34,810 nucleotides of DNA from Phycisphaerae bacterium (lineage in GTDB: Bacteria > Planctomycetota > Phycisphaerae > Phycisphaerales > SM1A02): NCBI GenBank assembly GCA_002683195.1, contig NYSW01000016.1, forward strand, positions 40,387 through 75,196, in the 5' to 3' direction. Each line of letters opens with the position of its first letter. Positions within the stretch are counted from its first letter, which is position 1. The notes under the pieces were generated by a model that worked only from the letters and a program-made list of their open reading frames with translations, had not been told where the DNA came from and did no database searches. Below, piece after piece: positions 19,956 through 33,609 of this stretch. The position numbers and the translations under genes were made by a program.

Positions 19956-21428
19956 ATGCTTCAAATCCTGCGGCATATCAGTGACTACGGGCTGCTCGGC
20001 GAGCTCTTGCTGCTCGGTGACTTTCTGGTCCGAATGTCGCTCGCCATCTGGGTGCTGGCTCAGAAGAGACGAAGTCCGGAGTCCCGGATCGGCTGGATCC
20101 TTCTTCTCCTCGGACTTCCGTTCATCGGGACCGTGATCTTCCTGCTCGTCGGCGAGACCCGCCTCGGTCGACGCCGCATCGACCGCCACCGTCGAATTCG
20201 AGAAGCCCTCGATCGTCCGGATATCCACGCCGACGGTGACACCGAAGCGAGGGCCCATGACGAACTTGATCGAAGCAGCTCGCACCTGGCTCGCCTTGCC
20301 GAGCAGATCAGTGGCGGCGCGCCGGTTCGAGGCAACACCATCGAGTTGTTCGGAGACACCGCCGAAGTCATCCGCCGGATGGAAATCGACATCGATGGCG
20401 CCAAGCGACATTGCCATCTTCTGTTCTACATCTGGCTTGATGACAAGGCTGGAACGTGCATCGGCGAGGCCCTCATCCGCGCGGTCGGGCGAGGCGTGAC
20501 ATGTCGAGTGCTGGTCGACGCGGTGGGAAGCAAGCTGTTTCTCCGCTCCCATCTCTGCGAACGGATGAGGGAAGCCGGAGTCCAGGTGAAGGTCGCGCTT
20601 CCCGCCAATCCCATCCGCGCCATCTTCGCGCGGCTCGATCTGAGGAATCACCGAAAGATCGCGGTCATCGACCATGAACTGGCGTGGACCGGAAGCCAGA
20701 ATCTCGCGGAGGCCGATTTCGCGTTGAAACCCAGGTTCGCCCCGTGGGTCGATTGCGTGGTTCGGCTCGTCGGCCCCGTCGCAAAGGAACTTCATCTGCT
20801 GTTCGTCGAGGGTTGGTTTCTCGATGCGGGAGAGTCCCTGGTCGATGAACTGCTCGAACCCGTGCCGACGCGAGAGAACGGGGTCATCGCCCAGGTGGTG
20901 GCTTCCGGACCCAATTTCCGAAACCATGCGGCGACCCAGCTGATCCAGTCCTGCATTCACGAAGCGGATGAGGAACTCGTCCTCACCACGCCCTACTTCG
21001 TTCCCGACGGCGCCACCATCGTCAACCTCGCGACCGCGGCCCGACGCGGCATCAAGGTGACGGTCGTGGTGCCACGCCGAAACGACTCTCGCCTGGTGGC
21101 CCTGGCCAGCCGGTCCAACTACGCCCCCCTCCTCGAAGCCGGCGTCCGAATGTTGGAATTCGAAGGCGGCCTTCTTCATGCCAAGACGATCACCGTCGAC
21201 CGCAGAGTCGCTCTGGTGACCAGTTGCAATCTGGATCGCCGAAGCTTCGATCTCAACTTCGAGGCCGGGGTCCTGATATTCGACTGCGACTTCGCCAGCA
21301 ACCTGCGTTTCCTGCAGCAGTCCTACTGCGACCGAAGCGTCGTGGTCGATCCCCGGAAATGGGGAGCCAGACCGAGCCGCACCCGGCTGCTGGAGAACGC
21401 GGCGGGCCTGCTCTCTCCGTTGCTCTGA
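19956..21428 (+). CDS. cls: Cardiolipin synthase (phospholipase D family)
   Basis: A 490-residue membrane enzyme expected to make cardiolipin from phosphatidylglycerol. Two hydrophobic segments lie within the first 70 residues (GLLGELLLLGDFLVRMSLAI; IGWILLLLGLPFIGTVIFLL). Two HKD catalytic motifs follow: NHRKIAVID...GSQN near residues 230-250 and HAKTITVD...SCNLDRRS near 408-430, both with intact His, Lys and Asp. Length and layout match bacterial Cls (about 480-490). The start follows GGGG nine bases upstream. A perfect inverted repeat GGATGA-TCT-TCATCC lies at 19920-19934 in the short leader. The downstream neighbour is convergent after six bases. Other PLD-family transferases are possible, but the two N-terminal helices favour Cls. 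Confidence 0.9.
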   Translation: MLQILRHISDYGLLGELLLLGDFLVRMSLAIWVLAQKRRSPESRIGWILLLLGLPFIGTVIFLLVGETRLGRRRIDRHRRIREALDRPDIHADGDTEARAHDELDRSSSHLARLAEQISGGAPVRGNTIELFGDTAEVIRRMEIDIDGAKRHCHLLFYIWLDDKAGTCIGEALIRAVGRGVTCRVLVDAVGSKLFLRSHLCERMREAGVQVKVALPANPIRAIFARLDLRNHRKIAVIDHELAWTGSQNLAEADFALKPRFAPWVDCVVRLVGPVAKELHLLFVEGWFLDAGESLVDELLEPVPTRENGVIAQVVASGPNFRNHAATQLIQSCIHEADEELVLTTPYFVPDGATIVNLATAARRGIKVTVVVPRRNDSRLVALASRSNYAPLLEAGVRMLEFEGGLLHAKTITVDRRVALVTSCNLDRRSFDLNFEAGVLIFDCDFASNLRFLQQSYCDRSVVVDPRKWGARPSRTRLLENAAGLLSPLL

Positions 21429-21434
21429 ACCCGT

Positions 21435-23150
21435 TCAGAATCCACGATCGTCGGAAGCCCGCTCGATCACCAGCCGTCGCCCGGGTGAGGCGATCTCCTC
21501 GACCACCGTCCCGTCGGGCCAAAGCACCCGGACCGCGATCGGGCCCGATCCATCCCGAGGGAAACCGAAGTGGGCCTCCGGGGCCGCATTCGACTGATAG
21601 GGCCCGCCGCCCCTGATCCAGCGACGCTGGATGCCATCACCTCGGGTGGCCGTGACTTCCGCACCCGCGGACGGAACCGGTCTCACCACCAGCCAGTCAT
21701 CCGTCCGATCGTGCTGGTTCTCCAGCAGGCGAGGCGGCCCGTTGTGTTCCATCACGACGACGTCCACGTCACCATCAAGGTCGAGGTCCGCGAAGACCGC
21801 CGCCCGGTCTCGATGAGGTGTTCGAAGCCATTCGTTCGCTTCGAACATCAACGCGTGAGCAGGATCACGCGAATCCATGAACTGAAAACCATCACCACCC
21901 CGCACCCAGAGCCCCGGCGATTGCGCATAGGAACTGTCCATGTTCTCCACCGTCGCCTGCGGATAGACGTGGCCGTTGAACACCACCAGATCCTCGTCAC
22001 CATCGTGATCGAGATCGACGAATTCCGTCGCCCATCCGAGCATGGGTCGGGAACCCTCCGCGAGCCCGAGAGGCCGGGTTCGGTCATCGAAGAATCCGTC
22101 TCGATTGAGGTGGAGCGTGTTGGTGTCGCTGGAAAAGTTGGTACTGAACACATCGGGAGTGCCATCGCCATCGACGTCCCCGATGGCCATGCCCATGGTC
22201 GCTTGCGCGTCACCCTCACGATTGGTCGCCACCCCGGTTCGCACCCCGACTTCCTCGAAACGCCAGTCGCCGAGATTCCGGAAGTACTGGTTCGGATGAG
22301 AATCGTTTCCGATCAGAACGTCCTGACGTCCATCCCGATCGAAGTCGGTGATGACCAGATTGAGTCCGTAGCGGGCGATTCCGTCGACCTCGCGTCGCTC
22401 GAACCGCCCGCCGACGTTTTCGTACCAGCGATCGGCACGGGCGGAAAGACCTCGGGGACCGGAGAGCACTTCGATGCCACGAAAGGTCGAGGTTCCGGGA
22501 GGATCGGCGGGATCGAATTCGAGGTACCCGACCACCACGAGGTCGAGATCACCATCGCCATCGAGATCACCCAACCCCATCGACGAAGACCATCCTTCCT
22601 CCGCCCTCCCCGTGCCAAGGCCCCAGGCCGAAGTGCCATCCTCGAAGCGACCATCGCCACGGCCGAGCCAGAGTCGGTCCCCACCGAGGGTTGCAATGAT
22701 CAGATCGTCGATGCCGTCACCATCGACGTCTCCCACGGCGTTCCCGAAACTCCAGTCCTGGTGAGCTTCAAGACCAGAATCACCCGTGGCGTCCTCGAAG
22801 GCCAGACGCCCTTCCTCCACGGTGAGGTTGCGGAAATACCGGGCACCCGGCCCGGATGACGGCGCATCGAGCGTGGCGCCGTTGGGGAAGACCAGATCAA
22901 GATCACCATCCCCATCACCGTCGATCAAGGCGAGGCCACCGCCCTTGACCTCCACGATCGTGGTCGAAGGATCCCCCCCGCTGGTCGATCGAAACGAATC
23001 GAGTCCCGAGCCCTCGGTCACATCGAGAAGGACGATCGATGGCGCGTCCATGGACGGCGACCGATCCGAACCCGACTCGTGTCCGCATCCGAACAGGGAC
23101 GCGAGGAGCGTTCCGAACAGCGACGCGGATTGGAGAGGACGCGGACGCAT
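21435..23150 (-). CDS. CRTAC1-family lipoprotein: FG-GAP beta-propeller with ASPIC/UnbV domain
   Basis: A 571-residue predicted lipoprotein (signal ending LASLFGC, Cys at residue 22). It carries about seven FG-GAP/VCBS-type calcium loops of the form D-x-D-G-D-x-x-x-D (for example GDVDGDGIDDLII, GDLDGDGDLDLVV, VDLDHDGDEDLVV), which together should form one integrin-like beta-propeller. The last 75 residues fit the ASPIC/UnbV domain (GAEVTATRGDG, GGPYQSNAAPEAHFGF, VRVLWPDGTVVEE). Such proteins are common in planctomycetes and their function is mostly unknown; binding or scaffolding at the cell surface is plausible. The ATG at 23150 overlaps the stop of the upstream TPR gene (TGATG), with a GTG alternative at 23153. 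It converges with cls, with no terminator seen between. Confidence 0.85.
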   Translation of the reverse strand: MRPRPLQSASLFGTLLASLFGCGHESGSDRSPSMDAPSIVLLDVTEGSGLDSFRSTSGGDPSTTIVEVKGGGLALIDGDGDGDLDLVFPNGATLDAPSSGPGARYFRNLTVEEGRLAFEDATGDSGLEAHQDWSFGNAVGDVDGDGIDDLIIATLGGDRLWLGRGDGRFEDGTSAWGLGTGRAEEGWSSSMGLGDLDGDGDLDLVVVGYLEFDPADPPGTSTFRGIEVLSGPRGLSARADRWYENVGGRFERREVDGIARYGLNLVITDFDRDGRQDVLIGNDSHPNQYFRNLGDWRFEEVGVRTGVATNREGDAQATMGMAIGDVDGDGTPDVFSTNFSSDTNTLHLNRDGFFDDRTRPLGLAEGSRPMLGWATEFVDLDHDGDEDLVVFNGHVYPQATVENMDSSYAQSPGLWVRGGDGFQFMDSRDPAHALMFEANEWLRTPHRDRAAVFADLDLDGDVDVVVMEHNGPPRLLENQHDRTDDWLVVRPVPSAGAEVTATRGDGIQRRWIRGGGPYQSNAAPEAHFGFPRDGSGPIAVRVLWPDGTVVEEIASPGRRLVIERASDDRGF

Positions 23151-24004
23151 CACCCGGCTTCCAGCGAGGAATCGGGCAACACATCACCGTCTATCGGTAC
23201 GCCGAGTCGAAGACGAGCCCGACGTTCCTCACCTCTCGCCCACGCGGCCTTCTCCTGATCTTTCAGACGCTCATGCCCGCGAGCCAGTTTCGCCCAGCCT
23301 TCATACGAATCGGCGAACTGGATCACACCTTTGTGAAATGACTTCGTCGCCTCCTCGAATCGATCCAGTTCCCAGAGCGCGTCGCCACGGCGGATCCAGG
23401 TCTTTCCGATCGAACGCCGGCGGGCGGCGCCGGCGATCTCCAGCTCCAACGCCCTGTCGAACGCCACCAATGCCGATTCCGGTCGGCCGAGTTCCAGCAA
23501 GGAACGCCCACGACCGAACTCTGAGTCCGGGGTGTCTGGCTGACTCGCAAGATGACTGGCGAACGCAACCTCGGCTTCGCGGGGCCGCCCCAGATAGAAC
23601 AGGCACCATCCGCGGAAATGATCCAGCGAGTCCCGGCCCGTGAACTCCCGCGGATCCTGGAGGATGGCCTCGAATTCCCGCAACGCCGGCGCGTAATTCT
23701 TCTGCTTCTGGATCGAGAGGGCTCGAAGGAAGCGAGGACGGGGATGATTCGGGTGATCCGCGAGCACCGCCTCGAACACCAACTGGGAATCCTCGAATTG
23801 GCCGCCGCTCAACAACTGAAGGCCCAGATCAAGCCGTGGGTCCGGCAGTGGTACGGCGGCGATGGACTCGGCCGAATCCGGCTCCGGCGCGGGCGTAACG
23901 TCCGATAGTTGGCCACACGCGGCCAGCAAGAGGGTTGGAAGGCTCATCCGAACCATCCAGCGAGGGGCGGCGTGTTTCCTTGATTTGACCATCAGTCGAA
24001 ACAT
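23150..24004 (-). CDS. TPR-repeat lipoprotein
   Basis: A 284-residue predicted lipoprotein with the lipobox LLAAC (Cys at about residue 30), then about five to six tetratricopeptide-like helical pairs (LDLGLQLLSGGQFEDSQLVF; PRFLRALSIQKQKNYAPALR; FGRGRSLLELGRPESALVAF; WIRRGDALWELDRFEEATKS; WAKLARGHERLKDQEKAAWA). TPR proteins are protein-binding scaffolds; the lipid anchor places it in a membrane facing the periplasm. It is co-translated with the downstream CRTAC1 lipoprotein through TGATG, and the same TPR-then-CRTAC1 order recurs at 28757-33609. The start is uncertain: ATGs at 24049, 24004 and 23992 are all in frame and none has a clear ribosome binding site. Confidence 0.75.
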   Translation of the reverse strand: MFRLMVKSRKHAAPRWMVRMSLPTLLLAACGQLSDVTPAPEPDSAESIAAVPLPDPRLDLGLQLLSGGQFEDSQLVFEAVLADHPNHPRPRFLRALSIQKQKNYAPALREFEAILQDPREFTGRDSLDHFRGWCLFYLGRPREAEVAFASHLASQPDTPDSEFGRGRSLLELGRPESALVAFDRALELEIAGAARRRSIGKTWIRRGDALWELDRFEEATKSFHKGVIQFADSYEGWAKLARGHERLKDQEKAAWARGEERRARLRLGVPIDGDVLPDSSLEAG

Positions 24005-24308
24005 CCGATCGTGGTGAGGGTGAAACCGATTCTCGGATCTCTGATTCACGAACCTTGGAGGCCGGCTTCAAGACTTCCGGACCTCACTTCGAAAAACAGG
24101 GATCCAACCGAAGATTCCCGCGTCCGATCATTGGACTGGAACCCTTCGACGGGCAACAATACTGAGGAGAGGGTAGCCCAGCGGCGAGGTGAGTTCCTCG
24201 GCGCCGATCGAAAGGGCTGCTTTCCGTTTTTTCGGACCATCGCAAGATCTGACATCCGGGTACCCCTTTCCGCGCTGCGCGGAGCCGCGTATCCATTGGA
24301 GCCGACCC
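24005..24308. promoter_or_regulatory. Divergent promoter region with a structured leader before the di-heme oxidoreductase gene
   Basis: A 304-bp gap without a supported gene. A possible sigma-70-type promoter on the plus strand is TTGGAC (24131-24136), 18 bases, then AACAAT (24155-24160). Downstream lies a potential folded leader: GTAGCCC at 24174-24180 can pair with GGGCTGC at 24214-24220 around an inner hairpin CGAGG-TGAGTT-CCTCG (24185-24200). An overlapping alternative GAAAG-GGCTG-CTTTC (24210-24224) is followed by CG and six T. Another short hairpin, CCGCG-CTG-CGCGG, lies at 24270-24282. The mutually exclusive hairpins, one ahead of a T-run, would suit an attenuator, but this is only a reading of the sequence. 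Confidence 0.4.
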
Positions 24309-26036
24309 GTGAGACCAGAAACCCCGCGACGAGTCCTGATCGCCGGCATCCTCACGACGTCCATCGCCACCCTCGCCGGCGTGCTCTCTTCGTCCGAGGC
24401 CGGACCCCTGGATGGACGTGATGGTGAACGCCGACGCGGCCTCCTGATCAGTCCGCAACCTCCCGTCGGTTCACCGCTGGTCGGGCTTGACGCCGATCAA
24501 CTCGAGAAATTCGGCTTGGGACGAGTTCTCTACGCCACCCCGATTCCGATCGAGGACGGCCTCGGCCCGGTCCTGAACAAGTCCAACTGCAGGTCCTGCC
24601 ACTCGAATCCCGACGGCGGCCCCGGCAACATCGCGGTCACCCACTTCGGCTACTCGGACAAGGGCGAATTCGTGACCCTCCCCGGGGGAACGCTTCGGCA
24701 ACTCGTCGCGATCTCGTCCGGATGCGAGGAAGTCATTCCGCCCGAAGCGAACTTCACGACCAACCGGATCACGCCAGGGATGATGGGCTACGGACTGGTC
24801 GAAGCCATCGCCGACGCCGACATCGCCGCGAACGAAGACGTGAGCGACGCCGATGGCGACGGAATCAGTGGCCGGGTCCACTGGGTCGATGACCTGGCCG
24901 CACCCGCCGGTTCGCCTCAACGCGCCGGTCGGTTCGGGTGGAAGTCCATCATCGCGACCATCGAGCACTTCTCCGGCGATGCCAGCCTCATGGAGATGGG
25001 CCTGACCAATCAGATCCTCGGCGAGGAGACCGCACCCAACGGAGACCTCGCGAAACTCGCCCTCTGCGATGACGTCGCCGACCCCGAGGACCACCCCGAC
25101 GTCGAAGGCTTCACCTTCGTCGACCGCGTCACCCACTTCCAGCGATACATGGCCGCACCGCCACAGAGTCCGCGGGGTGGCATGCACGGCGAGACGGTGT
25201 TCAACGACCTGGGTTGCAACGCCTGTCACGTCCCGAGTTTCACCGCCGCCGATGACCCCGGCCTCGAATCCGCGATCCGCGGGGCGACGGTCCGGCCGTA
25301 TTCCGATTTTCTGCTCCACGACATGGGGCTTCTGGGAGACGGTCTTCCGCAGGGCCAGGCCGGCGAAAGCGAGTTCCGAACCACCCCGCTCATGGGCGTC
25401 GCTCGGCGAGAGACACTCATTCACGACGGACGCATCTCGGGCGGGCTCATCGAGGATCGTCTCCGACTGGCGATCGCCGCCCACGGACCATTCGGTGAAG
25501 GTGCGACGGCGGCCGCGAACTGGGTCTTGCTCGAGAAGGACGACGATGAGGCGCTGATTCGATTCCTGAAGTCACTCGGCCGGGCCGATTTCGATCTCAA
25601 CGACGATGACGTCATCGATCTCAGCGATTGGCAGGGTTTCCTGGATTGCGCGGCCATCGACACCGTGATCTCACCGGACATGACGTGCGGAATCGCGGAC
25701 ATCGATCAGGACGGCATGGTTTCCCAGACCGATCTGGATTCCTTCCTCATCGCGTTCAGCGGTGAGAACGGCGACTGCGACGGCGACGGGGAAACCAACC
25801 TCGAAGAGATCTTCAACGGCGCTCCGGACAACGATCAGGATGGTGTTCCTGACGACTGCCCGGCCCCCTGCCCCGGTGATTTCAACGGCGACGGCAGTGT
25901 GACCGGCGCCGACCTCGGACTCATGATCGCGGCGTGGGGCTCCTGCAGTGGATGCCCCGAAGACCTGACCGGAGACGGCCTGGTCAACGGCGCGGATCTC
26001 GGATTGATGATCGCCGGCTGGGGCCTCTGCCCCTGA
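24309..26036 (+). CDS. Di-heme oxidoreductase (DHOR-type) with C-terminal dockerin-like tag
   Basis: A 575-residue exported protein. A signal peptide covers about residues 1-31 (PRR, then VLIAGILTTSIATLAGVL, SSSEA). Two c-type heme sites are CRSCH at 94-98 (preceded by GPVLNKSN, as in the family) and CNACH at 303-307, matching the di-heme oxidoreductase/DUF1111 group related to MauG-like peroxidases. After the catalytic part come acidic calcium-loop segments (DFDLNDDDVIDLSDW; ADIDQDGMVSQTDLDSF) and a duplicated dockerin-like end (about 521-575) with two NGADLGLMIAGWG-type units and terminal Cys. The GTG start at 24309 has GGAG seven bases upstream and yields a proper signal peptide; ATG at 24189 would add unlikely sequence. 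The substrate is unknown. It is followed by a gene with the same tag. Confidence 0.85.
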   Translation: MRPETPRRVLIAGILTTSIATLAGVLSSSEAGPLDGRDGERRRGLLISPQPPVGSPLVGLDADQLEKFGLGRVLYATPIPIEDGLGPVLNKSNCRSCHSNPDGGPGNIAVTHFGYSDKGEFVTLPGGTLRQLVAISSGCEEVIPPEANFTTNRITPGMMGYGLVEAIADADIAANEDVSDADGDGISGRVHWVDDLAAPAGSPQRAGRFGWKSIIATIEHFSGDASLMEMGLTNQILGEETAPNGDLAKLALCDDVADPEDHPDVEGFTFVDRVTHFQRYMAAPPQSPRGGMHGETVFNDLGCNACHVPSFTAADDPGLESAIRGATVRPYSDFLLHDMGLLGDGLPQGQAGESEFRTTPLMGVARRETLIHDGRISGGLIEDRLRLAIAAHGPFGEGATAAANWVLLEKDDDEALIRFLKSLGRADFDLNDDDVIDLSDWQGFLDCAAIDTVISPDMTCGIADIDQDGMVSQTDLDSFLIAFSGENGDCDGDGETNLEEIFNGAPDNDQDGVPDDCPAPCPGDFNGDGSVTGADLGLMIAAWGSCSGCPEDLTGDGLVNGADLGLMIAGWGLCP

Positions 26037-26119
26037 CCGAAGATCGAAACAGGTTCCTCGGGACCATGATTGAAAACGACCCACACCCCATCCGCCACGG
26101 CGGACCCTTGGAGAGCCAG

Positions 26120-28597
26120 ATGCGATTCGGCAGCACGTTTGAAAACGGTTTGAGTCTCTTGGCCGGTGTCGCGATCACCGCGAGCGCCAGCGCCCAATGG
26201 GTGGACCTCGTTGAAGCGACGGATTCACGACTGGTGATCGATCCGCTCTACTCGGTGAACGACAACATCGAGAAGGATTTCGCCTGGGACGACTTCGACA
26301 AGGATGGATGGATCGATCTGGTGATCGTCCGCAAGTTCCCGGGGTCGATCGAAGGTGGCGCCCGCAACATCCTGCTGATGAACGAGGAAGGCGTGCTCAT
26401 CGACCGTACCGATCAGTATGCCAGCACCTCGGATGTCAGCGGCGACAACGGATTTCTCGCCCTGACCAACGACCGGGATGTGAAGGTCGCCGACTTCGAC
26501 AACGACGGCTGGCCGGACCTGGTCACGTCGACCACCATGAGCGACGACAAGAGCGCCCGCATCGGCCAGCCCCGGATCTACATGAACCGGGGCGAGGACA
26601 TCGACGGGAACTGGCTCGGCTTCCGTTTCGAAGACGACCGGATTCCGGTGCTCTTCGCGAAGAACGGCAACGCGGCGAATCCTCGTGCCTGTGCGATCGA
26701 TGTCGGGGACCTGAACAATGACGGTTACCCCGACATGTACTTCGTCGACTACGACACGCCGGAGACGAGCGGAACGATCTGCATCGATCTCAATGGCGAC
26801 GGCGACACCAACGACGTGGTCGACGGCGTGAACGAATGCAACCAGTCCCCCAGCGAAGATCCGAGCAAGGACTACGACGGCAAGCTCCTGTTCAATCAGG
26901 GCGCCAAGAACCCCGGATACTTCATCGATACCACGACCAGCCGCATGACCTCGAACCAGCTGGACCAGGCCTTCGGCAACGAGTGCGCCATCCGGGACGT
27001 GAACAATGACGGCCTCCTCGACGTCATCCGAGTGAACACGTTGACCGGCGGGCAGAACATCGCGGTTCTCTACCAGACCGAGGGATCCAGTTGGATCGGC
27101 CCGGTGGAGATCACCGCGGGCGCTCCCTACGGCATGAACGCCGCCGACCTCGACAACGATGGCGACATCGACATCATCACCGCCGACGATGGCCAGGATG
27201 CCTACGTGCTCAACAATGGCAACAACGGCTCCGGGCAGGCCACCTGGACTCGTTACACGATGCCCGATTCGCTGAATGAATTCGGAAATTCGATCCAGTT
27301 CGGGGACCTCGACCAGGATGGCTGGAAGGACGTGATCATCGCCGACGTCGATTCCGACCTCGGCCCTTTCTGCCCGAGTTCCGGCCGTCGGATGCACATC
27401 TATCAGAACACCGGGGTCGCCACCAATCTTCTGGTCGAGAACGAACTGATCCTCCCCAGCTGGGCCCTCGACTCCACCTATGACGCGGCCCCCATCGACC
27501 TCAACAACGATGGCTGGCTCGACCTGGTCATTGGTGGCTGCTACGGACTCAGCGTCTGGATGAACAACCCGCCGATCGGCATCGATTTCACCTATCCCGC
27601 GGGAATCCCCTCGGCGATCGAACCGGGAGCCTCCACCTCGATCGCGGTGAACCTGTCGGCCTTCGGTGGCACGATCAACCAACGGACCCCCGCCATGGAA
27701 GTCATGGTCAACGGCGGGTCGGCGATCGAGATTCCGATGAACGGCTCCGGTGACTCCTGGACCGCCACGCTGCCCGCCTTCGCGTGCGAGGACGACGTCC
27801 GTTTCGTCTTCACCGCGGACCTTCAGGGAGGTGGCGAGTTCCGAGATCCAGCCCTCGGCGAATATTCGACGATGGTGTCATCCGGCATCGTCGTCACCTT
27901 TGAAGATGACATGGAGTCCGGAACCGGTGGCTGGACCACCACCAATGACGGTGCCACCGCCGGTGCCTGGGAGATCGCTGATCCGGTCGCGACCACCGCC
28001 GCCGGTCAGCAGTTCGCCCCGGGTGAATCCTCCGACGGTGATTTCTGCTGGGTCACGCAGAACGGCAGCCCCGGCGGTTCCGCCGGCACGGCCGACCTTG
28101 ACGGCGGCCCGGTCACCCTGACCTCGCCGGTGATGGATCTGTCCGATGGAAACGCGACGGTCAGTTTCGACTGGTGGTTCATGAACGACGACTTCGGCAC
28201 CGCAGCCGAGGACTCCTTGCTGGTTCAGGTGAGCAATGGTGGAGACTGGGTGACCGCCCGGACCATCACCAACGGCTCCGCGGGCTGGAACTCGGCGTCC
28301 TTCGTGGTCGGCGACTTCGTGAGTCCCTCCGCGACCATCCAAGTCAGGTTCCAGTGTTCCGACGCCCCCAACAACTCGCTCACTGAAGCCGGCATCGATG
28401 CCTTCAAGGTGGAACGGGTCGAATGCGAAGACGTCGCCTGCCTCGAAGATCTCAATGGAGACGGCCTGATCAACGGTGCCGATCTCGGCCTGCTCATCGC
28501 GGGTTGGGGCACCGCGTCCGGCGACATCAACGGTGACGGCACCACCAACGGTGCGGACCTCGGTTTGATGATCGCGGCATTCGGAACCGACTGCTGA
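26120..28597 (+). CDS. Secreted FG-GAP repeat protein with C-terminal dockerin-like tag
   Basis: An 825-residue exported protein with signal peptide (MRFGSTFENGLSLLAGVAI, cleavage after ASAQ). Residues about 40-490 contain seven FG-GAP/VCBS calcium loops (DDFDKDGWIDLVIV, ADFDNDGWPDLV, GDLNNDGYPDMY, RDVNNDGLLDVI, ADLDNDGDIDII, GDLDQDGWKDVI, IDLNNDGWLDLV), one predicted propeller. An Ig-like segment follows, then a jelly-roll-like domain at about 590-770 (SGTGGWTTTNDG; SFDWWFMNDDFG) similar to MAM/laminin-G-like adhesion modules. The last 52 residues are a dockerin-like pair ending in Cys, as in the upstream gene. The start at 26120 has GGAG six bases upstream; earlier in-frame ATGs would hide the signal peptide. 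It lies 83 bp after the di-heme gene and ends at a strong terminator. No enzyme motif was seen; a binding or matrix role is inferred. Confidence 0.8.
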   Translation: MRFGSTFENGLSLLAGVAITASASAQWVDLVEATDSRLVIDPLYSVNDNIEKDFAWDDFDKDGWIDLVIVRKFPGSIEGGARNILLMNEEGVLIDRTDQYASTSDVSGDNGFLALTNDRDVKVADFDNDGWPDLVTSTTMSDDKSARIGQPRIYMNRGEDIDGNWLGFRFEDDRIPVLFAKNGNAANPRACAIDVGDLNNDGYPDMYFVDYDTPETSGTICIDLNGDGDTNDVVDGVNECNQSPSEDPSKDYDGKLLFNQGAKNPGYFIDTTTSRMTSNQLDQAFGNECAIRDVNNDGLLDVIRVNTLTGGQNIAVLYQTEGSSWIGPVEITAGAPYGMNAADLDNDGDIDIITADDGQDAYVLNNGNNGSGQATWTRYTMPDSLNEFGNSIQFGDLDQDGWKDVIIADVDSDLGPFCPSSGRRMHIYQNTGVATNLLVENELILPSWALDSTYDAAPIDLNNDGWLDLVIGGCYGLSVWMNNPPIGIDFTYPAGIPSAIEPGASTSIAVNLSAFGGTINQRTPAMEVMVNGGSAIEIPMNGSGDSWTATLPAFACEDDVRFVFTADLQGGGEFRDPALGEYSTMVSSGIVVTFEDDMESGTGGWTTTNDGATAGAWEIADPVATTAAGQQFAPGESSDGDFCWVTQNGSPGGSAGTADLDGGPVTLTSPVMDLSDGNATVSFDWWFMNDDFGTAAEDSLLVQVSNGGDWVTARTITNGSAGWNSASFVVGDFVSPSATIQVRFQCSDAPNNSLTEAGIDAFKVERVECEDVACLEDLNGDGLINGADLGLLIAGWGTASGDINGDGTTNGADLGLMIAAFGTDC

Positions 28598-28625
28598 TCT
28601 CCGAACGTCCGGCCTGAAGCTCACT

Positions 28626-28659
28626 CCGCCCCGTCGGCATCTGCCGGCGGGGCGGTTTT
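28626..28659 (+). terminator. Strong Rho-independent terminator
   Basis: A 13-pair stem (CCGCCCCG-T-CGGC against GCCG-G-CGGGGCGG, one T-G pair) with loop ATCT is followed by TTTT. It lies 28 bp after the FG-GAP gene stop on the plus strand. On the other strand no T-run follows, so it serves the plus-strand pair. It also ends in front of the convergent CRTAC1 gene. Confidence 0.9.
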
Positions 28660-28756
28660 CTGCGCGACATCCCTGCCGTTCGAGTGGCATGGTGGAACGT
28701 GAGCGAAAAGGAACTGGAGGAACCCTGACCCGGGACCGACGGCCGACGTGGGCCGA

Positions 28757-30622
28757 TCAGTCTCGACCGAAACGGACCCGGCCGGATCCGATCGGTCCTT
28801 CGATCCCCCTGACGTCGCCATCCGGCCAACGGATCTCGAGCCGATCGAGGGCCGAGGCCTCTCCGAGGCCGAACACCGCCACGGGTTCCACTTGGGAGAG
28901 ATAGCTCCTCGTGGGCATGATTCGACGCACCATGGTGCGATCGCCCACCGTGCCGACGAGGACGGCACCGATTCCATCGGGGTTCCCGGGGCGACCATCC
29001 AGACGGACCTGAACCCCGGAACCGGTCGAGGCATCATTCCGGAGCACCACCGGTGGACCAGCGACCTGCGTGAGAATCAGATCCAGATCACCGTCGAGAT
29101 CCAGGTCGCCGCTGGCCAGTCCACGACCCACGATGGGAGTCGACAGGTCACCGAGCGCTTCGCCGGGAACCTCACGAAAACCTCCGCCTCGCGAGGGTGG
29201 CAGACCGCGAAAGACCTGCGCGGGTTGTCGGTACGCCTGGCTGGCCTGCACGACCGTGATCTCCTCTTCCAGATGACCATTGGCCTGCACCAGATCCTCG
29301 ATGCCGTCGAGGTCGAGATCCGTGAAGAGCAGACCGAAGGTCAATGCCCGCCGGGTCGGCCCCGAAACACCCTCCCCCGCGGCGTCATCGAAGAAACCCG
29401 ACTCCCCTGATCTCCGAACGAACAGCGAACTCGGTTCGTTGGCGAAGTTTCCGATCGCGACCAGCGTCTCCTCGCCTCCGCGGGCCGGCCGAGTCGCGAC
29501 GTCGATTCCCATGGCGCCGGTCGCGGCTCCGGAGCGATCGAAGGCGATCCCCAATCGTCGGCCTCGTTCCTGGAAGTGCGCGGTTCCGTCGTTGATCCAG
29601 GCGGCGTTCGCCGTGGTGTCGTTCGCCCCCACCACGTCGAGATCACCATCGTCATCCAGATCGACCATCGCGATCGCCAGGCCCTTGCCTTCCGGTTGAC
29701 CGGTCTCCGCATTCATCTGCCGAAGCCCCCGCGCCTCGGACCGGTCCTCAAGCCGCATCCGACCGTCCTCATCCTGCTCGTTCACCAGCAGAAAGGGAAC
29801 GGTTCCCGCGAAGCCGGTGGGCGGGCCGTACGCACGACCGAGTCCATCGATTCGAAAATCGACGGCCGCATCCAGTTCCGGCGACCAATCGACGTAGCAG
29901 AGGCCCACGAGGTCCAGATCGTCGTCCTGATCCAGATCTGCGAATCCAACCGCGGTGCTCCATGCATGCGTCTCGGGAATTCCAAACGCGTCACTTCCAT
30001 CCACGAACCGGATCCGACCGGCGGAAGATTCGTTCAGCAGCAATCGGTCTCGGCCCATCATCGAGATGAACAAGTCAGGATCACCATCCGCATCGACGTC
30101 TCCCACCGCGACCCCCATGCCATGACCGGAAAGCAACGGCAGGCCCTGCACCCGAACGAAACGGGGCGATCCATCTTCGGACTCCGTGTTCCGGTAGGCG
30201 ACGACTGCCGCTCCCGGCCCCTCGGCAAGAAGGTCGCCTCCATCGATGAAGACCAGATCCGGCCGCTCATCGCCATCCAGATCCACCACCGCCACGCCAC
30301 CACCGAGGGATTCAGGCAGGAGTTTGCCGCCCCGAGCTCCATTGTCCCGAACGAAATCCACGCCCCATTCATCGGTCACTTCCGTGAACGGCATCGCCAG
30401 GTCGACGACCTCGGGCGCGGGAGACGTGTCGATCGAAGGTGCTTCGACCTTCGTCTGATCCACGGTTCGTTCCTCCACCACGGGAGAGAGAAGGGTTCGA
30501 GCCAGCAGCACTCCGCCGACCACCACCCCCAATCCGACCCCCACGTAGAGGCTCCGGCGAAAAGCCACCGCGATGACCGCATCACGATCCCTCGACCGCC
30601 GGGATCCGCCGGAGTCATTCAT
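28757..30622 (-). CDS. Membrane-anchored CRTAC1-family protein (FG-GAP propeller with ASPIC/UnbV domain)
   Basis: A 621-residue protein with a single N-terminal membrane helix (about 24-45, SLYVGVGLGVVVGGVLLA) after a basic cytoplasmic start, so it is anchored and not lipidated, unlike its paralogue at 21435. About six FG-GAP calcium loops follow (VDLDGDERPDLVF, GDVDADGDPDLFI, ADLDQDDDLDLVG, VDLDDDGDLDVVG, TDLDLDGIEDLVQ, GDLDLDGDLDLIL). The C-terminal ASPIC/UnbV domain is clear (GAVLVGTVGDRT, SYLSQVEPVAVFGLG, LEIRWPDGDVRG). The start overlaps the stop of the multiheme cytochrome gene (ATGA) and has GGAGGAG eight bases upstream. Tight coupling suggests it is a periplasmic or surface partner of that cytochrome. 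Function is not established. Confidence 0.85.
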   Translation of the reverse strand: MNDSGGSRRSRDRDAVIAVAFRRSLYVGVGLGVVVGGVLLARTLLSPVVEERTVDQTKVEAPSIDTSPAPEVVDLAMPFTEVTDEWGVDFVRDNGARGGKLLPESLGGGVAVVDLDGDERPDLVFIDGGDLLAEGPGAAVVAYRNTESEDGSPRFVRVQGLPLLSGHGMGVAVGDVDADGDPDLFISMMGRDRLLLNESSAGRIRFVDGSDAFGIPETHAWSTAVGFADLDQDDDLDLVGLCYVDWSPELDAAVDFRIDGLGRAYGPPTGFAGTVPFLLVNEQDEDGRMRLEDRSEARGLRQMNAETGQPEGKGLAIAMVDLDDDGDLDVVGANDTTANAAWINDGTAHFQERGRRLGIAFDRSGAATGAMGIDVATRPARGGEETLVAIGNFANEPSSLFVRRSGESGFFDDAAGEGVSGPTRRALTFGLLFTDLDLDGIEDLVQANGHLEEEITVVQASQAYRQPAQVFRGLPPSRGGGFREVPGEALGDLSTPIVGRGLASGDLDLDGDLDLILTQVAGPPVVLRNDASTGSGVQVRLDGRPGNPDGIGAVLVGTVGDRTMVRRIMPTRSYLSQVEPVAVFGLGEASALDRLEIRWPDGDVRGIEGPIGSGRVRFGRD

Positions 30623-33609
30623 CGGGATTCTCCTCCCAGGGAAGGCGGGCCCGACATCACCGTCCGGTCGGATGCCACGTCCGTTTCCGAAGCGGTCGAT
30701 GCGTCATCATTCAAGTCGTAGATCGCGATCGGCTCGGCCGCGTGGTCGGCGATCTCGCTCCGGCTTCGTGCGAGCCGGATGGCGCGATCTCGAGCGTTGT
30801 CGTCGGGGCGGATGACTTCGAATTCCGCCAGGGCCCGGGCGGCACCCTCATCGTCTCCCGCCGCCTCGAAGAGCCGGGATGCAAGGAACCAGGTTCGTGC
30901 TCTCTGGGAATTGAGCTCGAGTGAACGATTCACCGCCTCCAGTGCACGTCCGATCTCCGCTTCGTAGGCCTCGTCGGTCGCGGCTCGTCGGGCGATCTGG
31001 AATCGGACGGTCGCAAGCTCGTTCCACACCCGCTCGTCGCGGGAGAAGTCGTAGCCACGCTCCACCGCGGTGGCGTACCGGGATGCGATGATCCGCTCGA
31101 TCCGCCGAACCGCCTCCTCGAGATCGCCGAGTTCCCTCGCCACCGCCGCGGCATACCAATCGAGGGCCCAGGGCCACTTGAGTTCGGGGTTCTCCGCAGC
31201 CCGGGCCAGTGCCTTGGAGGCATCATCGATCCGACCTTCGATGATCATCGCTCGCCCTTGATTCAAAGCGCCATCCGCCAAGCCAAGCTTCTCCACCTCC
31301 GCGAAGGCTTCGATCGCCTGCGCGAGCTGTCCCTTGGCGACGCCGCCGCCGGAACCCGCTCGCACCAGACCGATGCCGTAGTCGTTCCAACGCTGCCAAT
31401 CCGGAGCTTCAAGCGTGGTGCTCGCCACCAATTCGGACGCTCGCCCCACGGGGATCGTGATGGTCGTCTCGGCCATGTCGAGCACCGGAAGCGCCTTGGA
31501 CAGACGTTCGCCTTCCTCGACTCCGAATGCATGTCGCATGAGCCGGGTGTCGAACTTGCGGTATCGCACCCGACCTCGGATCACCAGTTCACCGGAGGCA
31601 TCGTCAGGAATCCGAATTCGATAGTGCGTGAGATCCGCGGCCCCGGGGGGGATCTGGTGGTTGAAAAGCGGAACGAAGATGTCCTCGGGATTGCGTTGCT
31701 CGATTCGATTGCCATCACGATCGAGAAGCCAGACATTCAGGAACTTCGACCACGGGTCCACCACGCCATCCTCGCCGATCAGTCCGCTCCGACCCAGGGG
31801 CGAAGCATCGGCGATGGGATCAGGTCGCAGCCCGACTTGGATTTCGATCCAGATCTCGTTGGAGTCCGCGGTTCCCTGCGTCAACGGATGTCCGAGGCCG
31901 AGGGTGCGAGTCAGCGTTTCGAGCAACACCGTCTCACCAGGCTCGACCCACACTTCGTTCATGCCCACCGGACCGCGGAATTCACCATTGACCCGACCTT
32001 CGGCCCGCAGGCCGATCAGATCCATGCGAAGGGCGTCTTCGTTCATCCGCACGCAGGCGTCGACCACTCGGTCCAATCTGGCCTGGGATTCCGGTCCGGG
32101 CTCGAGCGCGGCGGCGATCGCCGCCAGCCCGGTGTTCGCGGCATGGAAACCGTGATGGTGTTCGGTCGGAACTCCGGAGTCGTCCCGAATGCGAGCCGCA
32201 ATGCCCTCGCCCGGCACCAGCGGCATGTGACAACCATTGCAATCCGGGCTGATCGCCGGCGGCCAGTACCAGGAACCGATTCCTCGACCCGAGACCCCGG
32301 AAAGACGCCAGGTGTCGTAGTGATTCTGTCCTGGAAGCCACTTGTAGCCGTTCAGCGCCTCGGGCAGGAAGACCTTGTGACAAGCTCCGCAGAACTCGGC
32401 CGACTCGTGCACCGGCTTCAGGAAGGTCCGTTTGTGGAAATCGGGCTTGGCTAGAATCAGTTGTCGGTTGACCCACTGCAGAAACGGCGAGTCACTGAAC
32501 GCGAATGGATATCGCGGGGGATCCCGGAAGGTGTACGAAGCGTTTCCCAGGGTCGAGACATCCTCGATCCCGTGGCAGACGATGCAACCGATGCTCGCAC
32601 TTCCCAGCGGATCGGTCGCGGTCTCCTGCGCCAACGAAGGATCGGTCCAACGTTCCTGCTCCCAGCTCCCGGACATCAGGATCGCGGGATCGTGACATCC
32701 AGCGCAGAAACGACTCGGTTCCAGGTCATGGAAGCGATCAAGCATCGCCTGCCGGGTGTTCCGAACCGAGAACGCATAGAGCGGGTTGTTGAACGAACTC
32801 GCGGCGTGGGCCGAATCACCCCACTGGGCGTGGGCATCCTCATGGCAACTGATGCAATGCTCGTTGCCGAGGAGATGCTCGAGCGGAATCGTGCCGCCAC
32901 TGGCGGTTTCCACCAAGGAAGGGCCGAAGGCATCGTTCGAAGACGTGGCCAAGGCGACCAGCCCACCGGATCTGGTGGCCGGCGGAGGCTCCACCGTGGT
33001 CACCATCACCGCCAGCACGGCGGTCACCAGCCCTGCCCCGGACCAACCGATGCTCTGCTTCCAACGAAGCTTCGGTCCCACCAGACGATGGAGAACGAAG
33101 AGCCAGATGGCGAGCAAGGGACTGACCGCATGAACCCAGAAGATCACCTGGCGAGTCGGGGGATGATCGATGCCGAAGCGAATGCCGGCGAAATCGACTC
33201 GAACCAGCAGGAGTCCGGTGATCAGAAGCGCCACGCCGATCCACAGCAGCGCCCACCCCACGGCCACGGCACGGCGATTGGGGCGGTAACGCCCCCTCCA
33301 CGCGTGCATCGCCCCGTAGACGACGAACGGAATCAGGAGCAGCAGTCCGAGTCCGAGGTGAACGAGAATCGCCCACAGATAGGACCCGTCTTCACGGGAA
33401 TCTCCGGTCCACCACGCTGCAAGGTCGACCGCGGTGAGATAGATGCTGTCGAGCGCGAGTAATCCGAAAAGGACGAGCACGATTCGAAGCCAGATCCGGA
33501 GCCCGCGAGTCACGACCGGTCCGCTCGGACCGCGCCGCTTCCGGGACGTTCCGGCATGGGATTCGCCAGAGCGTGTCGTGTCCTGATTCTGGATCTGGGA
33601 GTTGCTCAT
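30619..33609 (-). CDS. Membrane pentaheme c-type cytochrome with C-terminal TPR region
   Basis: A 996-residue protein. Residues about 35-205 form about five membrane helices. Four histidines lie at helix ends in two pairs (VH...MH in helix 2; VHAV...LH in helix 4), as in membrane b-type cytochromes. Five CxxCH heme sites follow: 252-256 CISCH, 302-306 CAGCH, 342-346 CIVCH, 407-411 CGACH and 457-461 CNGCH, in a region resembling cytochrome c554-like multiheme proteins. A beta-rich middle part follows, then helical TPR-like repeats at about 735-950 (GALNQGRAMIIEGRIDDASK; WYAAAVARELGDLEEAV). It may pass electrons from quinol to a periplasmic acceptor; the b-heme idea is inference. The start ATG lacks a clear ribosome binding site. 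Coupled to the downstream CRTAC1 gene. Confidence 0.8.
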   Translation of the reverse strand: MSNSQIQNQDTTRSGESHAGTSRKRRGPSGPVVTRGLRIWLRIVLVLFGLLALDSIYLTAVDLAAWWTGDSREDGSYLWAILVHLGLGLLLLIPFVVYGAMHAWRGRYRPNRRAVAVGWALLWIGVALLITGLLLVRVDFAGIRFGIDHPPTRQVIFWVHAVSPLLAIWLFVLHRLVGPKLRWKQSIGWSGAGLVTAVLAVMVTTVEPPPATRSGGLVALATSSNDAFGPSLVETASGGTIPLEHLLGNEHCISCHEDAHAQWGDSAHAASSFNNPLYAFSVRNTRQAMLDRFHDLEPSRFCAGCHDPAILMSGSWEQERWTDPSLAQETATDPLGSASIGCIVCHGIEDVSTLGNASYTFRDPPRYPFAFSDSPFLQWVNRQLILAKPDFHKRTFLKPVHESAEFCGACHKVFLPEALNGYKWLPGQNHYDTWRLSGVSGRGIGSWYWPPAISPDCNGCHMPLVPGEGIAARIRDDSGVPTEHHHGFHAANTGLAAIAAALEPGPESQARLDRVVDACVRMNEDALRMDLIGLRAEGRVNGEFRGPVGMNEVWVEPGETVLLETLTRTLGLGHPLTQGTADSNEIWIEIQVGLRPDPIADASPLGRSGLIGEDGVVDPWSKFLNVWLLDRDGNRIEQRNPEDIFVPLFNHQIPPGAADLTHYRIRIPDDASGELVIRGRVRYRKFDTRLMRHAFGVEEGERLSKALPVLDMAETTITIPVGRASELVASTTLEAPDWQRWNDYGIGLVRAGSGGGVAKGQLAQAIEAFAEVEKLGLADGALNQGRAMIIEGRIDDASKALARAAENPELKWPWALDWYAAAVARELGDLEEAVRRIERIIASRYATAVERGYDFSRDERVWNELATVRFQIARRAATDEAYEAEIGRALEAVNRSLELNSQRARTWFLASRLFEAAGDDEGAARALAEFEVIRPDDNARDRAIRLARSRSEIADHAAEPIAIYDLNDDASTASETDVASDRTVMSGPPSLGGESR

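Follow-up and report, generated by a model that had tools for sequence, protein, structure and literature searches.

The window analysed here, 34,810 nucleotides of contig NYSW01000016.1 from a Phycisphaerae bacterium, contains a block of six genes that an earlier note, made from the sequence alone, had taken for a candidate surface redox system. All six open reading frames (ORFs), P0001 to P0006, were confirmed at the coordinates it named, including both gene overlaps and both heme proteins. Two of them form the core of this analysis: P0006, a membrane pentaheme cytochrome, and P0005, a CRTAC1-type beta-propeller protein, whose genes are coupled on the minus strand by an ATGA overlap (CGATGAATG). 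The core pair and the parts of P0006 are:

30619-33609, minus strand: P0006, membrane pentaheme cytochrome with C-terminal TPR, 996 amino acids, first gene of the core pair
32998-33507, minus strand: five-helix transmembrane module, residues 35-204 of P0006, likely cytochrome b-like
32227-32856, minus strand: five heme c motifs (CxxCH), residues 252-461 of P0006
31447-32103, minus strand: beta-rich domain, residues 503-721 of P0006, which aligns with the second half of pentaheme cytochrome c552
30739-31401, minus strand: TPR-like helical repeats by predicted fold, residues 737-957 of P0006
28757-30622, minus strand: P0005, CRTAC1-type beta-propeller protein, 621 amino acids, with one N-terminal hydrophobic helix and an ASPIC/UnbV domain

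The pairing of these two genes recurs well outside this genome. A protein search with P0006 scored 7997 candidates, of which 3615 had E <= 0.001. Conservation was surveyed in relatives' genomes that were either evenly drawn or came from a pattern scan; the pattern-scan set comprises 79 named loci from genomes of Planctomycetota, Verrucomicrobiota and Acidobacteriota, and because it is biased we took an evenly drawn set of 100 loci. Pentaheme homologs of mixed forms (E <= 1e-30) turned up in 58 of the 199 genomes searched in Planctomycetota, 38 of the 149 in Acidobacteriota and 4 of the 145 in Verrucomicrobiota, and the 100 loci cover 60 of the 81 places matched in Planctomycetota, 36 of the 48 in Acidobacteriota and 4 of the 5 in Verrucomicrobiota. 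Five loci (L124, L126, L131, L135 and L219) had no room for a judgement. At 74 of the 95 judgeable loci, spread over the three phyla, a CRTAC1 gene follows on the same strand within 700 bases; the earlier note had named the lack of any conserved neighbourhood as the outcome that would speak against it, and such a lack is not what we find.

The pattern-scan loci give a similar picture. Under a rule based on hidden Markov models, with at least 700 bases of room, CRTAC1 was downstream in 65 of 69 loci (64 of 66 with TPR, 1 of 3 others); the heme domain itself was matched in 75 of the 79 loci, 6 of them short of room. Under an ORF-based rule, 71 of the 79 loci had a same-strand CRTAC1 start downstream. 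That start fell within 50 bases of the pentaheme stop in 67 of the 71 and overlapped it by 1 or 4 bases in 53, these gap lengths being minimal because the rule takes the nearest start codon. Since a genome carries 2 to 10 ASPIC/UnbV genes (12 genomes counted), chance adjacency of the two genes would be rare. The adjacency of pentaheme and CRTAC1 genes thus exceeds chance and recurs across three phyla.

We next consider what the pairing goes with. Cytochromes with at least three predicted helices before the hemes have a CRTAC1 neighbour at 71 of 83 loci, and those with fewer helices at 3 of 12 (Fisher p 4e-5, kinship ignored). By TPR content, the neighbour is present at 15 of 15 TPR-less loci and at 59 of 80 TPR-bearing loci (Fisher p 0.036, again with kinship ignored), a trend that runs contrary to the earlier note's reading. 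Seen from the side of CRTAC1, 3 of 37 genes (40 regions in ten genomes, L150-L189, a biased set in which most have a pentaheme gene without a close CRTAC1) match the most frequent TPR models, and of 37 genes that neighbour them closely on the same strand 2 carry a TPR. We rejected TPR as the determinant of pairing, given that the TPR-less loci all keep CRTAC1 and few CRTAC1 genes have a TPR partner. The idea that TPR and CRTAC1 proteins work as a pair therefore does not stand as a rule; where it does find support is in Acidobacteria, in which a fused TPR-CRTAC1 protein directly follows the core pair in 37 of the 44 loci with enough DNA.

TPR, FG-GAP and ASPIC domains were all confirmed by Pfam in three of these Acidobacteria fusion proteins; five of the 37 fusion frames are short or cut (L034, L043, L053, L059 and L070). 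At one locus (L071:12619-17268) the first CRTAC1 and the following TPR-CRTAC1 form a single frame of 1549 residues. Two loci, L014 and L016, have a third gene of 1250-1280 amino acids with FG-GAP over the cut-off, ASPIC just below it and no TPR found. The 1186-amino-acid neighbour at L015 proved to be a transcription-repair helicase unrelated to the unit. Acidobacteria also hold nine soluble forms of the cytochrome, of about 770 residues (L224-L226, L228, L230, L231, L233, L238 and L239), with TPR, one predicted helix, no membrane module and no CRTAC1 directly downstream; in four of the nine there is a CRTAC1-like match elsewhere in the fetched stretch. Among the CRTAC1 genes of the ten genomes, one is directly followed by a protein with seven CxxCH motifs and TPR (L180:6169-8100), possibly a second, different heme/CRTAC1 pair, and another lies beside three consecutive genes on the opposite strand with two CxxCH motifs each (L168:6416-12090).

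The AlphaFold2 model of P0006 (pLDDT 89.2, pTM 0.86) opens with five helices (residues 35-68, 75-106, 112-135, 150-176 and 183-204), which are followed by the heme part, the beta-rich domain and TPR-like helices. The description of this protein in the earlier note as a pentaheme-TPR protein coupled to a membrane-anchored CRTAC1 protein was borne out by the gene overlap, the five CxxCH motifs and the N-terminal helix of P0005, with the TPR, which Pfam missed on this sequence, visible in the predicted fold. Within the transmembrane module, H84 and H160 are present in 79 of 79 aligned homologs, and H102 and H174 each in 53 of the 79; in a separate set of 72, the latter two occur together in 27 and alone in 1, a pattern that follows lineage. 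On helices 2 and 4 the two histidine pairs occupy opposite ends, as such pairs do in di-heme cytochromes b. The invariant H84/H160 pair is likely a b-heme site. Net loop charges over the 79 sequences (+3.8 and +3.5 on the expected inner side, -0.9 and +0.3 on the outer side) fit a predicted topology with the N-terminus in and the C-terminus out.

The five CxxCH motifs of P0006, at residues 252, 302, 342, 407 and 457, come after the hydrophobic stretches, and the protein matches Pfam Cytochrome_C554 with 26.4 bits (cut-off 20.8). All five motifs are kept in 169 of 171 aligned sequences, the other two being cut or broken. Apparent four-heme variants were rejected when the alignment revealed that heme I takes the form CX4CH (for example CGTSGCH) in 22 of the 171, restoring the count to five; these are L140-L149, L221, L223, L227, L232, L234, L240, L242, L244, L245 and L247-L249. 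H268, H486 and H574, present in 169 of 169 sequences, and H392, in 166 of 169, are candidate distal ligands, and H484 and H662 are variable, so that the alignment offers four near-invariant candidate distal histidines for five hemes. A Foldseek search with the P0006 model returned mainly TPR proteins among its top 50; on second inspection a fold match emerged between the periplasmic part, including the beta-rich, Ig-like second half, and pentaheme cytochrome c552 (5ze8), with sequence support at E 0.0031, or E 5.9e-6 by profile. Against the ExtKL equivalog model NF040886 of NCBIfam, P0006 scored 30.1 bits, far under the cut-off of 250.

Judged by its five motifs and common fold, the heme domain is one of the PHC family, which includes Thermochromatium tepidum c552, Geobacter ExtKL and the sPHC and lPHC of cable bacteria. 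Unlike those members, P0006 joins its heme domain to TPR and to five transmembrane helices that hold an invariant histidine pair, and it is paired with CRTAC1. The Geobacter ExtKL genes are described as clustering with those for a Rieske protein and a membrane cytochrome b (PMC5877670), and sPHC and lPHC as having one or more pentacoordinate hemes (PMC11976967).

The partner, P0005, resembles cartilage acidic protein 1 (CRTAC1; PDB 9etn, E 3.3e-12 by sequence), with which it shares an FG-GAP propeller and an ASPIC/UnbV domain; it differs in being bacterial, in having its own N-terminal membrane helix and in being encoded beside a multiheme cytochrome. UnbV_ASPIC is above its cut-off of 23.4 in both CRTAC1 proteins of the block (55.9 bits in P0005, 38.1 in P0001). 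Across P0005 and its relatives above 450 bits, E104, N197, Y243, P268, D335, M371 and R500 are invariant in 116 of 116 sequences and H450 is present in 114; position 92 is histidine in 104 of the 116 and arginine in P0005. Read from the sequence, Y243, D335 and H450 each lie 14-15 residues past the start of successive calcium loops, and this common offset makes it likely that all three face a single rim of the propeller. We saw no catalytic metal or cofactor motif in the propeller. The propeller of a modelled Acidobacteria TPR-CRTAC1 fusion also matches 9etn; the pTM of that model, 0.56, is too low for a statement on the interface between TPR and propeller.

Since many Planctomycetota and Acidobacteriota have these two genes side by side, we think it likely that their products make up one electron-transfer complex. 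That P0006 and P0005 work together more specifically as a quinol-linked complex facing the periplasm is a reading on which we are evenly divided. In its favour we count the recurrent pairing, the conserved histidines and the loop charges, the retention of five heme motifs, the c552-like fold and the Geobacter cluster around ExtKL. In such a complex, a heme b towards the periplasmic side would be ligated by H84 and H160; this lineage would have another, ligated by H102 and H174, towards the cytoplasmic side. Electrons from quinol would enter at the b-heme module and travel on along the five c hemes. Anchored by its N-terminal helix, the propeller would dock on the heme domain, and its conserved polar rim (E104, Y243, D335, H450 and R500) may hold an acceptor or substrate. 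The TPR would serve as an optional docking arm, optional because forms without it keep the propeller partner. A fuller version, in which a new kind of respiratory complex, a one-chain cytochrome b/pentaheme c enzyme of Planctomycetota, Acidobacteriota and a few Verrucomicrobiota, uses the CRTAC1 propeller as its catalytic or substrate-holding subunit, we offer tentatively, as possible but somewhat improbable; if it held, bacterial CRTAC1 proteins, which are related to a human matrix protein, would gain a first biochemical role.

Several observations weigh against the quinol-linked complex. Contact between the two proteins, heme content and activity are predicted only. P0006 has paired histidines on two transmembrane helices like the membrane subunits of the cytochrome b type, but its transmembrane part reaches the cut-off of no Pfam family, and the best of the cytochrome b families, formate dehydrogenase gamma, gave E 0.062 and 13.3 bits where 115.85 are required. 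No neighbouring gene backs the quinol step, though no search for a donor enzyme or terminal acceptor was run across the wider neighbourhood. The association between helices and adjacency is descriptive, uncorrected for shared ancestry, and three loci with fewer helices nonetheless have a CRTAC1 neighbour. Finally, 21 of the 95 loci have no adjacent CRTAC1, and 12 of these encode at least three predicted helices. Among the exceptions with helices, CRTAC1 is found farther downstream in L210 and L218 (about 2.2 and 5 kb), and two genomes (G026 and G089, with pentaheme loci L108 and L111) have split pairs, carrying a P0005-type CRTAC1 elsewhere (L155 and L159; 760 and 738 bits), an observation that we count in favour of the complex. 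ASPIC/UnbV genes are present somewhere in all ten genomes searched for exceptions. In the pattern-scan set, L012 has no CRTAC1 within 2 kb and L018 has one about 3.3 kb off.

The nearest rival reverses the direction of flow: the propeller would be the catalytic subunit of a periplasmic dehydrogenase, oxidising a substrate within its central funnel and passing electrons inward over the c and then the b hemes to quinone. The missing catalytic motif in the propeller counts against this, as does the fold search made with the fusion model, not with P0005, in which many non-enzymatic propellers score as well or better; we regard the dehydrogenase as unlikely. Alternatively, the cytochrome could be a conduit to acceptors outside the cell, with CRTAC1 and TPR as surface adaptors. 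Its place in the PHC family lends this some weight, since a part in extracellular electron transport has been proposed for its member ExtKL, and the structure of sPHC is described as related to that of the nanowire cytochrome AvECN (PMC11976967). Yet P0006 carries five predicted membrane helices, and no other ORF with more than one CxxCH was seen in the ten loci listed, where outer-membrane porins were not searched for. A P0006 homolog also occurs in Wenzhouxiangella marina, of an aerobic genus, which we count against a conduit, and overall extracellular transfer strikes us as distinctly unlikely.

A further option is that the CRTAC1 protein is an assembly factor or a copper or thiol chaperone for the cytochrome and not a working subunit. 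SCO1/SenC matches were found in 4 of the 37 CRTAC1 proteins of the ten genomes, but P0005 itself gave no SCO1 match in the Pfam scan, and we hold the chaperone role to be improbable, a little more so than the conduit.

The remaining genes of the block and its immediate neighbours are:

19956-21428, plus strand: phospholipase D/cardiolipin synthase-like gene, adjoining the block
21435-23153, minus strand: P0001, CRTAC1 lipoprotein with UnbV_ASPIC match and lipobox LFGC, overlapping the TPR lipoprotein gene
23150-24049, minus strand: P0002, TPR lipoprotein (Pfam TPR) with lipobox LAAC
24189-26036, plus strand: P0003, di-heme oxidoreductase (Pfam DHOR) with CxxCH motifs and a dockerin-like tag
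26066-28597, plus strand: P0004, FG-GAP protein (ORF, Pfam) with the same tag as P0003
33757-34203, minus strand: 2Fe-2S ferredoxin, on the strand of the pentaheme gene and 147 bases upstream of it

Between the two minus-strand pairs lie the di-heme and FG-GAP genes. P0003 matches DHOR (PF06537) with 133.5 bits (cut-off 22; profile positions 214-499 of 499) and has CxxCH at residues 134 and 343. In a profile search of the PDB, the best 60 of 168 matches included weak ones to 9l08 (E 2e-6) and to the di-heme peroxidase 1iqc (E 2e-4), most of the others in those 60 falling on the EF-hand-like tail. The FG-GAP gene ends at 28597 and likely starts at 26066 or 26120 rather than at the first start of its ORF, 25934. 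Both proteins carry the dockerin-like C-terminal tag that had been proposed for them, just under the Dockerin_1 cut-off (20.2 and 22.7 against 22.9); with the GC-type dockerin model the P0003 tag scored 23.7 against a cut-off of 29, and the FG-GAP protein gave no match. We rejected the tag as the link between the two, as it is widespread, with 142 matches in the genome of one close relative (G001), and homologs stay paired even though the ends of the di-heme protein differ. In 20 loci around di-heme homologs an FG-GAP match was found in all 20, within 2 kb in 18 and on the same strand in 17 of those 18; one of these loci, L206, has a P0001-like CRTAC1 (47% identity) alongside. P0003 is over the cut-off of the DHOR family but is paired with an FG-GAP protein and tagged, and the di-heme/FG-GAP pair is a module in its own right.

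The other pair, in which the TPR lipoprotein is coupled to the CRTAC1 lipoprotein through GTGATGCG, was likewise found as described, supported by the ORFs, the overlap, Pfam and the lipoboxes. It resembles a split version of the Acidobacteria TPR-CRTAC1 fusion. Orthology of P0001 to that fusion is unsupported: at L041, P0001 scored 224 bits with a separate downstream CRTAC1, 172 with the first CRTAC1 and 70 with the fusion. Both this lipoprotein pair and the di-heme/FG-GAP pair have the appearance of separate modules that came to the locus in one Phycisphaerae lineage.

These results leave little of the proposal that the six genes jointly encode a single redox and scaffold assembly of the envelope. 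The block is whole in all five close Phycisphaerae relatives with enough flank (L001, L002, L006, L008 and L009), and the adjoining phospholipase D-like gene is kept in only two of these five, which would favour a functional block; but the block proteins of the five are about 44-80% identical, so the block may be mere synteny. Di-heme homologs occur in 35 of 199 Planctomycetota genomes, 23 of which also have a pentaheme gene, and the two share a contig in 1 of the 23, a close relative, many contigs being short and thus weak evidence of distance; a P0003-type gene beside the core pair was seen only in close relatives. With the di-heme pair standing alone and the tag occurring throughout a genome, a single six-gene assembly is the least probable of the readings considered, and very unlikely.

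On the other side of the core pair, the ferredoxin gene adjoins in ten of ten close relatives (L001-L010); its nearest NCBIfam model is ISC-type, with a score below the cut-off of that model. A comparison of the block DNA with a plasmid collection gave no match.

Each part of the core unit belongs to a known family. In the open-access literature, a scope that leaves most subscription papers outside, we found no description of a joined pentaheme/CRTAC1 unit or of its spread, and no biochemical function for CRTAC1, human or bacterial, the bacterial proteins appearing there as a domain name only. The closest parallel is a set of hydrazine-synthase-like clusters from Planctomycetota and others, in which a CRTAC1 gene lies between alpha-like and beta-gamma-like genes (PMC12758564). 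They add another instance in which CRTAC1 accompanies heme-enzyme genes, the only one among the sources consulted, and are likened to our pair by gene neighbourhood alone, namely a CRTAC1/FG-GAP gene beside heme-enzyme genes; no TPR-pentaheme unit is described in the available portion of that source.

The gene pair provides a testable setting for bacterial CRTAC1 proteins. If P0006 and P0005 do form a quinol-linked redox complex, roughly one in four genomes sampled from two major environmental phyla would carry an uncharacterised respiratory branch.
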